Of a stretch of DNA of 54,719 bases, positions 16,021 to 42,936 are shown piece after piece. Below the pieces are notes generated by a model. That model did not search any database and was not told the DNA's origin. It saw nothing but the letters and a program-made list of their open reading frames with translations. Location: the NCBI GenBank assembly GCA_902614915.1, contig CACMMX010000013.1, positions 1-54,719 of the forward strand, read 5' to 3'. Position 1 is the first letter of the stretch, and each line of letters begins with the position of its first letter. Source of the stretch: an uncultured Cryomorphaceae bacterium. GTDB taxonomy: Bacteria; Bacteroidota; Bacteroidia; Flavobacteriales; Schleiferiaceae. Made by a program: the position numbers and the translations under genes.

Positions 16021-17439
16021 CTAGAATTGGAAATAAATGAAGCTCTGTTGTTCCCCACTGTAGAGTAAAATTAAATAAGCGAGGCACATATATAGAGTCA
16101 GCCTCAATAAAGTGGATTTTGAAAGTACGCCTTCACTTAGCGTATTCAGAGCAAAATCGTGCTTGCGTCCAATCCAGTCACCAATGAATAACAGTGCCAC
16201 ACATGCAATTAGAGTTGGTTTAATGGAAAGCGATTTTCCTTCATTCCAGAGGGCGATATTCTGTAAATAGTCAATAGCATGCGAAAGAGAATCTGCACGG
16301 AAAAATATCCAAGCGATTGTCGTAATTGAAAAAGTAAGAAGTATTCTATGCAGGTCTTTGATTTCTGGGTTATTTAAATTATTTCTGTTTTGTTTGGCAA
16401 GAAGAAGTGGGAGAAACAGTAGCGCGTTTATAAGGCCCCAAGTGATGAAAGTCCAATTGGAGCCGTGCCAAAAACCTGAGACTATAAATATGGCAAAGGT
16501 ATTTCTGATTTTAAGTAAAGTAGCGCCGCGAGAGCCTCCAAGGGGGATATAGAGATAATCTCTAAACCAAGTGCTCAACGAAATATGCCATCGGCGCCAA
16601 AATTCAGCAATATCACGGGAAAAGTAGGGCGTTCTGAAATTTTGCATTAAATCGATTCCAAAAAGCTTAGAAATACCAATGGCAATGTCTGAGTATCCAG
16701 AAAAATCGCAATATATCTGTATTGAGAATAATAAGGCTCCTGCAATTAAAGCAATGGCACTATATCCGTTAGGGTCACCAAAAGCTTGATCCACCAAAGG
16801 GGCTACTGCATCTGCTATCACAACCTTTTTAAAAAACCCCCAAAGCCCTTGGCGCATACCATCAACGGCTTTCTGATAGTCAAAATACCTGCTTTTAGAT
16901 ATTTGTGGAAGAAGGTTTGATGCCCTTTCTATGGGACCTGCAACAAGTTGCGGGAAGTAGCCAACAAAAGCAGCAAAGGCAATGAAGTCTTTAGTAGGCC
17001 CAAGTTTGTTCCGGTAGATATCAATGGTGTAGGACATCGTTTGAAAGGTATAGAAAGAGATACCGACAGGCAAGGCTATATTTAGAAGGGTAGGATTAGT
17101 GGAGAAGCCAATGATATTAGCCATCTCCATGAAATTCTCCATGAAGAAATTGTAGTATTTGAATATACCAAGAAGACCTAGATTAAAAAACATACTTGCA
17201 GTCAGCAAGAGCTTTCGCTTCAAGGTATTCGTTGCAATTGCTAAGTTTTGGCCAAGTAAATAATCGACCGCAGTGGATGCTAAAATGAGGCTCAAGAATC
17301 TTACGTCCCACCAACCGTAGAAAATGTAGGAGGCTGCAAGGAGCATTATATTTTGAGAGCGCAATGAATTACTCAGCGCCCAGTATAAAGCAAATACAAT
17401 AGGTAAAAAGACAGCGAAAGACAGCGAATTGAACAGCAT
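16021..17439 (-). CDS. MBOAT-family membrane O-acyltransferase (AlgI-like)
   Basis: A 472-residue polytopic membrane protein. It has the AlgI-type hallmarks: FPQLVAGPIER (162-172), FSGYSDIAIG (246-255), WRRWHISLS with H285, and SGFWHGSNWTF with the conserved H325. It moves an acyl group, usually acetyl, across the inner membrane for transfer to a surface polymer. The SGNH-like protein immediately downstream is the expected periplasmic partner. The gene overlaps the upstream glycosyltransferase by one base. The acceptor is most likely the glycan made by this locus; that is inference. Confidence 0.9.
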   Translation of the reverse strand: MLFNSLSFAVFLPIVFALYWALSNSLRSQNIMLLAASYIFYGWWDVRFLSLILASTAVDYLLGQNLAIATNTLKRKLLLTASMFFNLGLLGIFKYYNFFMENFMEMANIIGFSTNPTLLNIALPVGISFYTFQTMSYTIDIYRNKLGPTKDFIAFAAFVGYFPQLVAGPIERASNLLPQISKSRYFDYQKAVDGMRQGLWGFFKKVVIADAVAPLVDQAFGDPNGYSAIALIAGALLFSIQIYCDFSGYSDIAIGISKLFGIDLMQNFRTPYFSRDIAEFWRRWHISLSTWFRDYLYIPLGGSRGATLLKIRNTFAIFIVSGFWHGSNWTFITWGLINALLFLPLLLAKQNRNNLNNPEIKDLHRILLTFSITTIAWIFFRADSLSHAIDYLQNIALWNEGKSLSIKPTLIACVALLFIGDWIGRKHDFALNTLSEGVLSKSTLLRLTLYMCLAYLILLYSGEQQSFIYFQF

Positions 17440-40707: not shown

Positions 40708-41620
40708 CTCTATGCCATTCTATGTGAGTTCGTTCTGCTACCCTAAGCTTGGCGCTCGTAGCTCTAGGATTTATTGCGTTTTCTTGAGTACTTGCTGTTA
40801 TGGGCTTTCTAGTAATAGCTTTTAAGGGTAGGTGTTTGACTCCAAATAAATCACTTTCTGTTTGTCCAGAGGCTTTGCCCTCTCTTATAAAATTTTTAAC
40901 TATTCGGTCTTCTAAGCTGTGGTAGCTCATGACCACTAATCTTCCACCTGGCTTTAATACATCAATTGCGCCATACAGCAGTTCTTCAAGTACCTCAAGC
41001 TCACCGTTAACCTCCATTCTCAGACCCTGGAAAACCTGGGCTAAATACTTGTGCCATTGTCCGTGTGGAGCCAACGGTCCACACAACTCGCGCAGCTCAG
41101 AGGTTGTAGTCAGTGGATGATTTGCGCGTGCCATGAGCAGTGCGTTTACTAGAGACCGGAGGCCCTTAATATCTGTGTGTTTTCTAAATAGGTCGTACAG
41201 TGCTTGCTCTTGGTAGGTCTCTAAAACTTCCGCGGCACTAAGTCCAGCATTGGGATTCATGCGCATATCTAAAGGCCCATTAAATCGAATAGAGAATCCA
41301 CGCTTACCTTCATCAAATTGGTGCGAGGAAACGCCTAAATCTGCCAATATTCCGTCTATATTTTTAGCACCATGTAACCGCAGGTGATTTTTGATGTAGC
41401 GGAAATTAGAGGCAATAAATATTAGATTTGGGTGTTCTAGAAGGTTAGCCTTTGTATCCGGGTCTTGATCAAAAGCGTATAGCTTACCTGTGGTTAGTTG
41501 TTCTAAAATAGCTTTGCTATGACCGCCTCCACCAAAGGTCACATCAACATACAACCCCTTTGGATTAATGTTAAGTCCCTCTAAGCATTCTTCTAAAAGA
41601 ACCGGATCATGGTAGCTCAT
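40700..41620 (-). CDS. rsmH: 16S rRNA m4C1402 methyltransferase RsmH
   Basis: The 306-residue SAM-dependent enzyme methylates N4 of C1402 in the 16S rRNA decoding site. The N-terminal HDPVLLEECLEGL, the SAM loop DVTFGGGGHS, LADLGVSSHQFD, GFSIRFNGPLDMRMN and the catalytic-region SYHSLEDRIVKNF are typical. The gene overlaps the mraZ stop by 14 bases, as in many dcw clusters. Confidence 0.97.
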   Translation of the reverse strand: MSYHDPVLLEECLEGLNINPKGLYVDVTFGGGGHSKAILEQLTTGKLYAFDQDPDTKANLLEHPNLIFIASNFRYIKNHLRLHGAKNIDGILADLGVSSHQFDEGKRGFSIRFNGPLDMRMNPNAGLSAAEVLETYQEQALYDLFRKHTDIKGLRSLVNALLMARANHPLTTTSELRELCGPLAPHGQWHKYLAQVFQGLRMEVNGELEVLEELLYGAIDVLKPGGRLVVMSYHSLEDRIVKNFIREGKASGQTESDLFGVKHLPLKAITRKPITASTQENAINPRATSAKLRVAERTHIEWHRDE

Positions 41621-42080
41621 TCTGACTTGGATTTATTCTGCCCATTACTTCTTCAGCGAGCAATCCAAAGTCATCTCCATCTACGTTTACGGCATGCTCA
41701 TAAGCTAGTTTGTCCCAAATCTCTACAATGCCGTTGTGTGCACTAAGCACCACTTCACGGCTGAGATTTGCGAAAGATTTGAGATCTGGACTTATCCCTA
41801 CACGGGTAGCACCATCTAGCTCAACGAGTTTTAAACCTGCAGTGAATAATCGAATAAAATCGTTGTTCTTTTTTACAAAACGGTTTAAGGTGTTCACCTT
41901 ACCCATGACTTCATTCCACTTTTGCATTGGGTATAGCTCTAAACATTTGCTAAACACACTTCTTTTGAGTACGAAGGCCTCGTCCATAGCAGGGGCGAGC
42001 TGCTTTTTTAAGGCCGCCGGTAGACTGATGCGACCTTTCGCATCCATCTTGCATTCGTGTACTCCAATAAGGTTTAACAT
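41607..42080 (-). CDS. mraZ: Transcriptional regulator MraZ
   Basis: The protein has 157 residues with two SpoVT/AbrB-like DNA-binding halves. Each carries the DxxxR motif: DAKGRISLP near 13 and DGATRVGIS near 89. MraZ forms rings that bind TGGGN repeats and represses its own operon in E. coli. Here a matching pair of repeats lies 39-54 bases upstream of the ATG, overlapping the likely promoter, which supports autoregulation. It is the first gene of the dcw operon. Confidence 0.96.
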   Translation of the reverse strand: MLNLIGVHECKMDAKGRISLPAALKKQLAPAMDEAFVLKRSVFSKCLELYPMQKWNEVMGKVNTLNRFVKKNNDFIRLFTAGLKLVELDGATRVGISPDLKSFANLSREVVLSAHNGIVEIWDKLAYEHAVNVDGDDFGLLAEEVMGRINPSQNELP

Positions 42081-42101
42081 GTCTAAAGTTTGCTCTCTTT
42101 A

Positions 42102-42109
42102 CAAATGTA
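42102..42109 (-). promoter_or_regulatory. mraZ promoter -7 element
   Basis: TACATTTG on the minus strand matches the Bacteroidetes TAnnTTTG consensus exactly and ends 21 bases before the mraZ ATG. The best upstream TTTG is 24 bases away, a little far for the -33 box. The first GTGGGA pair falls in the spacer and -33 region. Confidence 0.6.
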
Positions 42110-42118
42110 GAATTATCA

Positions 42119-42134
42119 TCCCACGATTTCCCAC
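42119..42134 (-). promoter_or_regulatory. MraZ-type operator, pair 1 (facing mraZ)
   Basis: On the minus strand the sequence is GTGGGAAATCGTGGGA, two GTGGGA copies with a 10-bp period. Viewed as TGGGA-N5-TGGGA, this is the arrangement described for the E. coli MraZ box (which has three copies). It begins nine bases upstream of the -7 element, suited to repression. Confidence 0.7.
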
Positions 42135-42146
42135 AAACGTACATAT

Positions 42147-42155
42147 TGTGGATAA
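42147..42155 (-). promoter_or_regulatory. Consensus DnaA box 1
   Basis: The minus strand reads TTATCCACA, a perfect match to the strong DnaA box. It lies 12 bases beyond MraZ pair 1. The 10-mer TGTGGATAAC on the plus strand is repeated 90 bases away. Confidence 0.55.
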
Positions 42156-42204
42156 CTTTTCCCATTTTTTTGGTTTAAAATATCGTAAAGTCTTGCTTAG
42201 ACTG

Positions 42205-42220
42205 GTGGGAATAAGTGGGA
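42205..42220 (+). promoter_or_regulatory. MraZ-type operator, pair 2 (facing engB)
   Basis: The plus strand reads GTGGGAATAAGTGGGA, again two GTGGGA copies with a 10-bp period, in opposite orientation to pair 1. It lies 92 bases before the engB ATG and 70 bases from pair 1. It could let MraZ act on engB or support looping between the pairs. Confidence 0.6.
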
Positions 42221-42236
42221 AAAAATAAAATTATTA

Positions 42237-42245
42237 TGTGGATAA
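42237..42245 (-). promoter_or_regulatory. Consensus DnaA box 2
   Basis: A second exact TTATCCACA (minus strand), same orientation as box 1 and exactly 90 bases from it. It is preceded on the plus strand by a very AT-rich tract (42220-42236). Confidence 0.55.
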
Positions 42246-42287
42246 CATAGTTAATAACCGTCTGATCAGATGACACAATAAATGACC

Positions 42288-42295
42288 TAACTTTG
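42288..42295 (+). promoter_or_regulatory. engB promoter -7 element
   Basis: TAACTTTG matches TAnnTTTG and ends 17 bases before the engB ATG. No clear TTG is seen at -33. A 10-bp palindrome (TCTGATCAGA, 42261-42270) lies just upstream in the spacer region. Confidence 0.5.
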
Positions 42296-42312
42296 CGCCA
42301 ATACTGAGAACT

Positions 42313-42936
42313 ATGAAGATTAAAAGTGCCAATTTCGTGAAATCCTCAGCTAAGCTAGAGGAGTGCCCTGAGCCTACTAAAAACGAGTTTGCATTTATCG
42401 GAAGATCTAATGTTGGTAAGAGTTCTTTAATCAATATGTTGATGCAGCGAAAGGACTTGGCCAAAACTTCGGGAAAACCAGGAAAGACGCAGCTTATCAA
42501 TCATTTTGAAATTAACGAGGATTGGTATCTGGTAGATTTACCCGGATACGGTTATGCGAAAACCTCTAAGAAGAATAGAGCGATTTTTCAGTTTATGATT
42601 ACCACCTACATTAAGGAACGCCCTAACTTAATTAACACTTTCGTACTTGTGGATTGCAGACATGAACCGCAAAAGATTGATCTTGAATTTATCGAGTGGT
42701 GCGGTATTGAAGGTATTCCTTTTTCTATTGTTTTTACCAAGATTGATAAATTAGGATCCTCCGCACTTATTAAGCACATTGCGCGTTATAAGAAAAAGTT
42801 GCTGCTGCAATGGGAAGAATTACCACCGGTATTTATGACTTCAGCTGAAGGTCGAACTGGACGAGAAGAAGTACTTCGTTATATAGATGTTGTTCATCAA
42901 AGCATTACCCCAGAAATGTATAGTCGGAAAAATTGA
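42313..42936 (+). CDS. engB: Ribosome biogenesis GTPase EngB (YihA/YsxC)
   Basis: A 207-residue GTPase needed for assembly of the large ribosomal subunit. G1 is GRSNVGKSS (30-38), G3 is DLPGYGYA (75-82), and G4 is TKIDK, followed by the SA(E) stretch of G5 near 175. The length is standard. It is transcribed away from mraZ across a 232-bp region holding the MraZ-type and DnaA sites, and it is not linked to the convergent gldC. Confidence 0.96.
   Translation: MKIKSANFVKSSAKLEECPEPTKNEFAFIGRSNVGKSSLINMLMQRKDLAKTSGKPGKTQLINHFEINEDWYLVDLPGYGYAKTSKKNRAIFQFMITTYIKERPNLINTFVLVDCRHEPQKIDLEFIEWCGIEGIPFSIVFTKIDKLGSSALIKHIARYKKKLLLQWEELPPVFMTSAEGRTGREEVLRYIDVVHQSITPEMYSRKN

Follow-up and report, generated by a model that had tools for sequence, protein, structure and literature searches.

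The operator repeats of Escherichia coli MraZ are of the TGGG type, and the ftsL operon of Bacillus subtilis starts with yllB, a homologue of mraZ. MraZ represses its own gene cluster, and in both E. coli and Mollicutes the repeats recur at 10-bp steps upstream of mraZ (PMC8475190). In vivo, DnaA is bound at the ftsL promoter region in B. subtilis; for Caulobacter crescentus, binding at the ftsZ promoter region is known from in vitro work (PMC8203912). Among the products of the B. subtilis ftsL operon, RsmH and PbpB were unchanged after blocked initiation in a later study, in which FtsL itself went undetected (PMC11019786). The textbook consensus of the DnaA box is TTATNCACA (PMC4447404).

The window analysed here is a stretch of 54,719 nucleotides, contig C13 of a 1.65-Mb, 86%-complete assembly whose closest named relatives, metagenome-assembled bacteria, carry the labels Cryomorphaceae, Schleiferiaceae, Flavobacteriales or Bacteroidetes. 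Its mraZ/engB interval carries two inverted MraZ-type repeat pairs together with predicted DnaA boxes, and is best read as a region from which MraZ and DnaA jointly control the dcw operon and engB, a reading that we hold, from sequence comparison, at a probability of about 0.68. Like the B. subtilis ftsL promoter, the locus would bring DnaA, here predicted from sequence, to a division-operon promoter; unlike it, the locus includes a divergent engB, the box at ftsL has the form TTATNCACA (PMC4447404), and the portions of the literature consulted hold no report of a box set against MraZ repeats there. C. crescentus ftsZ likewise has the replication initiator at a division-gene promoter, although it is another gene in another phylum, and MraZ sites go unmentioned in the consulted part of the source (PMC8203912). 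The MraZ operators of E. coli and Mollicutes share the 10-bp-step repeats upstream of mraZ, whereas the window combines the operator with a DnaA-type site and has a second, inverted pair turned toward engB. DnaA at a division-operon promoter is already known from B. subtilis ftsL. As far as limited literature searching shows, it is new that the box is paired with the MraZ operator and that this is conserved across most of the order, and new too are the relaxed form of the box and engB as a second target; neither DnaA boxes at mraZ in Bacteroidota nor MraZ control of engB was reported in titles or abstract openings among the matches listed.

Genes and predicted promoters

The two genes are divergent and lie 232 bp apart. 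mraZ (41607..42080, minus strand) encodes the MraZ repressor and opens the dcw operon, which also includes mraW and an FtsL-like gene. Its product scores 70 bits against Pfam MraZ (cut-off 23, in two stretches) and 97.0 bits against NCBIfam TIGR00242, slightly below the cut-off of 98.35; with Pfam MraZ above its cut-off, a MraZ protein is encoded in the same genome as the MraZ-type repeats. engB (yihA/ysxC; 42313..42936, plus strand) encodes a ribosome-assembly GTPase (NCBIfam TIGR03598, 219 bits, cut-off 124). The same-genus set comprises 25 genomes, of which G002 and G014 have no mraZ match; in all 23 others the interval measures 230-232 bp. Outside the family, mraZ found no match at E 0.001 in three of the 23 order-level genomes (G047, G048 and G051).

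The flavobacterial -7 element, TAnnTTTG, spans -12 to -5 relative to the start (PMC9723704). The predicted mraZ promoter has TACATTTG at 42102..42109 (minus strand; inferred start 42097), with seven of eight columns invariant in 23 genomes, and the predicted engB promoter has TAACTTTG at 42288..42295 (plus strand; inferred start 42300), again with seven of eight columns invariant, one genome differing. A second mraZ promoter is tentatively proposed at 42134..42141 (minus strand), where TACGTTTG overlaps the MraZ repeat and varies among the 23 genomes only at the nn of TAnnTTTG.

Two conserved MraZ-type repeat pairs

The initial annotation had described GTGGGA-N4-GTGGGA twice in opposite orientation, and both pairs are exact: GTGGGAAATCGTGGGA on the mraZ side (42119..42134, minus strand) and GTGGGAATAAGTGGGA on the engB side (42205..42220, plus strand). 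These are the only two matches in the window, and none arose in 100 shuffles. GTGGG-N5-GTGGGA has 48 matches in the 25 same-genus genomes against 8 for the reversed pattern, and 46 of the 48 are the two mraZ/engB sites in 23 genomes, which makes the pattern nearly unique to this region. Alignment across relatives, which had been proposed as a check, found repeats and boxes conserved in the 23 genus genomes: both pairs are kept in every one, with 16 of 16 columns invariant on the mraZ side and 14 of 16 on the engB side, and the direct TGGG-type repeats with a 10-bp period upstream of mraZ are exact in the window and in all 23.

The two pairs are spaced 86 bp apart in 23/23 genomes; this spacing is kept because the 42 columns of spacer that separate box 1 from the engB-side pair (42163..42204), free in sequence but fixed in length, have drifted to a mean pairwise identity of 57% without a single gap cell. 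A fixed looping distance was considered as a general rule and rejected: it is true in the genus, but from the nearest CCAC pair to the GTGG pair the distance is 84 in the window and 97, 97, 119, 120, 130, 131 and 142 in seven non-genus loci. A GTGG pair points to engB in seven of the ten non-genus loci where engB directly faces mraZ.

From the inferred mraZ start, the mraZ-side pair occupies -22 to -37 and overlaps the predicted mraZ promoter, in keeping with MraZ being known to repress its own cluster (PMC8475190). Between the end of the engB-side pair and the nearest -7 element there are 67 nt. It is the conservation of both pairs that suggests that MraZ may act on both flanks.

Predicted DnaA boxes

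As initially annotated, TTATCCACA occurs twice on the minus strand, 90 bp apart, at 42147..42155 (box 1) and 42237..42245 (box 2). The count of two perfect boxes stands, but a weaker third box, TTATTAACT at 42249..42257 (minus strand), had been overlooked; five of its nine columns are invariant in 23 genomes, the variable ones being positions 5, 6 and the two ends. Among the 23 genomes, 14 have TTATCCACA as box 1 and 9 have TTATTCACA; box 1 fits TTATNCACA in all of them, varying only at N. Box 2 reads TTATTCACA in 16, TTATACACA in 4, TTATCCACA in 2 and TTTTCCACA in 1, and fits TTATNCACA in 22, the remaining genome differing at one further position. The distance between boxes 1 and 2 is 90 bp in 22 genomes and 89 in one. 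Box 1 lies at about -50 to -58 from the inferred mraZ start. On the other flank, box 3 is at -43 to -51, box 2 at -55 to -63 and the MraZ pair at -80 to -95 from the inferred engB start, so that the order from the gene outward is promoter, DnaA boxes, MraZ pair.

On one genome, the TTATCCACA matches could be due to chance, the MraZ sites alone being of importance. The 9-mer is not enriched genome-wide: the 1.65-Mb assembly has 26 occurrences of TTATCCACA and 25 of the reversed pattern, TTATNCACA occurs 92 times against 70, and TTATNMACA 4 times in the window, below the 7.2 expected from shuffling. About 0.5 chance box pairs within 100 bp are estimated for this genome from its 92 TTATNCACA sites; such pairs are not very improbable, and one of them in a single genome is mildly surprising only. 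No other TTATNCACA pair lies within 500 bp in the same assembly, among the matches listed. Conservation speaks against this explanation and leaves it hardly any credibility: the boxes are kept in 23 and 22 of 23 genus genomes, and box 1 has a counterpart in 58 of 72 other promoters (below). Box pairs with a gap of 66-96 bp number 27 in the 25 genus genomes, 22 of them in the mraZ/engB region, against 7 for the reversed pattern. Thus, the boxes appear functionally relevant because they are conserved, not because they are rare as 9-mers. Judged by this conservation, MraZ pairs and boxes alike are under selection.

Counterparts of box 1 beyond the genus

The mraZ upstream regions of other Flavobacteriales were collected for 74 loci, of which L100 was dropped for a run of N and one duplicate was merged, leaving 72. 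In 58 of these promoters, TTATN(A/C)ACA (TTATNMACA) lies on the mraZ strand at up to 120 nt, upstream of the MraZ repeats as box 1 is; 3 have it on the opposite strand. The wider TT(A/T)TN(A/C)ACA (TTWTNMACA) is found on the mraZ strand in 65 and is absent from the other seven (L073, L149, L155, L158, L159, L160 and L203). For 2,000 permuted patterns the same 72 promoters gave a mean of 1.1 and a maximum of 26, several of the top-scoring permutations being shifted readings of the box 1 counterpart itself. The 65 promoters carry TTATCAACA (27), TTATTAACA (25), TTTTCAACA (7), TTATGAACA (4) and TTATCCACA (2). The canonical box is not kept outside the genus, TTATNCACA being present in 2 and TTATNAACA in 56 of the 72; the reading of the site as a DnaA box there therefore rests on the evidence from the origin and the dnaA promoter presented below.

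The gap from the TTWTNMACA site to the next GTGG is 2 nt in 40 promoters, 12 nt in 20 and another length in 5. The two preferred positions are one repeat length apart and hence in the same helical register. Judging from the sequences, this placement would be best explained by contact or competition between DnaA and MraZ. It also bears on whether the boxes merely hold DnaA, as titration or nucleotide-exchange sites with no effect on transcription. There is precedent for this in E. coli, where boxes upstream of ftsZ have no effect on ftsZ transcription (PMC8203912), but titration needs no set distance between box 1 and the MraZ repeats such as that seen through most of the order loci examined, and we regard it as improbable.

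The box fades beyond the order. TTATNCACA lies within 250 nt of mraZ in 5 of 15 loci from other orders of the class (8 sites, reversed pattern 0), several of the sites at -160 to -196, and in 1 of 22 loci from other classes; these 22 are part of the phylum-level matches, and 16 of them were hand-picked. In one family of another order, TTATCCACA stands at about -160 to -196 in four of five mraZ upstream regions (L214, L218, L222 and L223), and in L214 and L223 a second box lies 10-12 bp from it. In another Flavobacteriales family, L210 (genome G109) carries TTATCCACA twice upstream of mraZ, at a spacing of 91 bp, an arrangement like that of the window.

Predicted location of the replication origin

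A less favoured part of the initial annotation took the region for a piece of a replication origin. Its two perfect boxes and the A+T-rich DNA between and beside them would agree with its being, or having been, an origin, but there are just two full boxes and one weak one, not a dense cluster, and GC skew does not turn here: within the window the change of sign is near 26 kb, at a switch of gene direction, and at 42 kb the skew is near zero. Both the turn and the densest boxes lie elsewhere, at 2.58 Mb in the complete relative G027 and beside rpiB in the genus. The origin reading is thus not borne out, and we give it next to no weight.

G027 has a genome of 4,000,057 bp. Its GC skew, taken from 20-kb samples, is below zero between 0.8 and 2.4 Mb and above zero in the samples from 2.6 Mb on around the chromosome to 0.6 Mb; finer bins are noisy and mostly negative up to 2.58 Mb, where they jump from -0.147 to +0.207. 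TTATNMACA density was scanned over 560 kb (28 stretches of 20 kb, 8 of them around the turn). The densest 1.5-kb window starts at 2,579,235, at the skew turn, and holds 8 sites (5 of the A form, 3 of the C form), compared with 2 per window for the reversed pattern, 2 for one permutation and 4 for a commoner one. The turn adjoins rpiB, and mraZ, at 3.193 Mb, is about 0.6 Mb away from it. The dnaA gene of G027, at 1.014 Mb, lies a long way from the inferred origin and closer to the terminus, which the skew would place at about 0.7 Mb.

At least two TTATN(A/C)ACA boxes lie within 400 nt upstream of rpiB in 14 of 17 genus loci (L249-L265), and 6,800 bases of upstream DNA hold 47 sites and 12 matches to the reversed pattern, in genomes that are related to one another. 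An orthologous site near -42 of rpiB reads TTATACACA, TTATTCACA, TTATTAACA or TTATAAACA, with A and C exchanged at position 6. Skew to the left and right of rpiB is +0.005/+0.086 on the contig from the window's own genome, with only 16 kb on the left, and -0.028/+0.078, -0.083/+0.050 and -0.037/+0.100 on three other genus contigs, so that the sign changes beside rpiB in three of four. The densest 500-bp box window is likewise beside rpiB in three of the four contigs and is tied with two others in the fourth. In the genome of the window, the origin is predicted at G000:C10:15674-15984 (about 15.67-15.98 kb), upstream of rpiB at 16028.

A probable relaxed DnaA box at the predicted origin and the dnaA promoter

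The origin and the initiator's own promoter are the two classical places of DnaA boxes. dnaA is present in 20 of the 25 genus genomes; the window's own assembly, 86% complete, gave no match to it. One of the loci (L116-L135), L129, is without upstream DNA and so outside the 19 counted. In 18 of these 19, the dnaA promoter contains TTATTAACA and, 40 bp from it, TTATNAACA, and about 105 bp upstream of these stands a third site, TTATGCACA in 4 and TTTTCAACA, TTTTGAACA or TTGTCAACA in 14, giving an array at about -272, -166 and -126; the exception, L133, has TTTTACACA and TTATCAACA. Because the motif clusters at the predicted origin, in G027 and at genus rpiB, and forms an array in the dnaA promoter, TTATN(A/C)ACA is probably the local DnaA box. 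As far as sequence goes, the sites at mraZ and engB, their conservation and the recurrence of the same box at the predicted origin and in the dnaA promoter are plain to see.

Some observations would suit another transcription factor that reads TTATN(A/C)ACA and governs a growth regulon of dnaA, mraZ, engB and atpD. Most sites outside the genus depart from the textbook box at position 6, and the dnaA genes of three order-level genomes (G039, G049 and G054) have no TTATN(A/C)ACA in about 1 kb of upstream DNA. Upstream of atpD (ATP synthase beta), no classical DnaA target, five of six genus genomes searched (L184-L188) have a tandem of the motif, TTAT(C/T)AACA-A(G/C)-TTAT(C/T)AACA, with boxes 2 bp apart. 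Set against this, the motif clusters at the G027 skew turn and beside rpiB, its A and C forms are swapped at one orthologous site, and the mraZ and engB boxes of the genus match the canonical TTATNCACA. Another factor is therefore unlikely, though it is the rival that deserves most attention, and DnaA is retained as the probable reader of the motif.

Further candidates and observations concern the same motif. The genus tandem TTATCAACA-AG-TTATTAACA was considered as an origin and ruled out, as it sits upstream of atpD. Coevolution of the DnaA recognition helix with A or C at position 6 was also rejected: the genus uses both forms, and the helix reads GNKDHATVLHA in all 20 genus DnaA sequences, as in G027. 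Two observations in relatives weigh against the DnaA reading. In G049, two box clusters fail to coincide with a weak skew minimum. In G054, the densest box cluster consists of TTATCCACA throughout, whereas the mraZ site is TTATTAACA.

Proposed joint control by MraZ and DnaA

Joint control, as initially proposed, gains support from the conserved MraZ pairs and boxes, from the fact that most of the Flavobacteriales mraZ promoters studied have a counterpart of box 1 and from the occurrence of the motif at the predicted origin and in the dnaA promoter. MraZ would bind two inverted GTGGGA pairs. From one, in the upstream part of the mraZ promoter, it would autorepress the dcw operon; the other lies upstream of the predicted promoter of engB. 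DnaA would occupy one site directly upstream of the mraZ-side repeats, and one strong and one weak site upstream of engB. We infer both that the protein bound at the boxes is DnaA and that it touches MraZ or competes with it, as well as the direction of its action: standing beside MraZ in helical register, DnaA would strengthen or relieve MraZ control, and a change in its amount or nucleotide state would alter that control, so that transcription of the dcw operon and engB would track the state of replication initiation. Co-repression under excess active DnaA is slightly favoured over activation. At engB, given the order promoter, DnaA, MraZ, MraZ may work by way of DnaA, together with it, or over the 86-bp interval.

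These sequence features suggest a built-in link between chromosome copying and cell division. More broadly, and at even odds in our estimate, Flavobacteriales may tie replication initiation to division and ribosome assembly through a composite operator at the start of the dcw operon (and, in this genus, at engB too), in which DnaA and MraZ sites lie side by side in helical phase, within a wider DnaA regulon that uses the relaxed box TTATN(A/C)ACA and includes dnaA and probably atpD. For an uncultured marine genus, the analysis yields a consensus for the DnaA box and predicts where the origin lies. A DnaA-type site set against the dcw MraZ operator through most of an order would provide a conserved promoter at which the link between replication and division may be tested directly.
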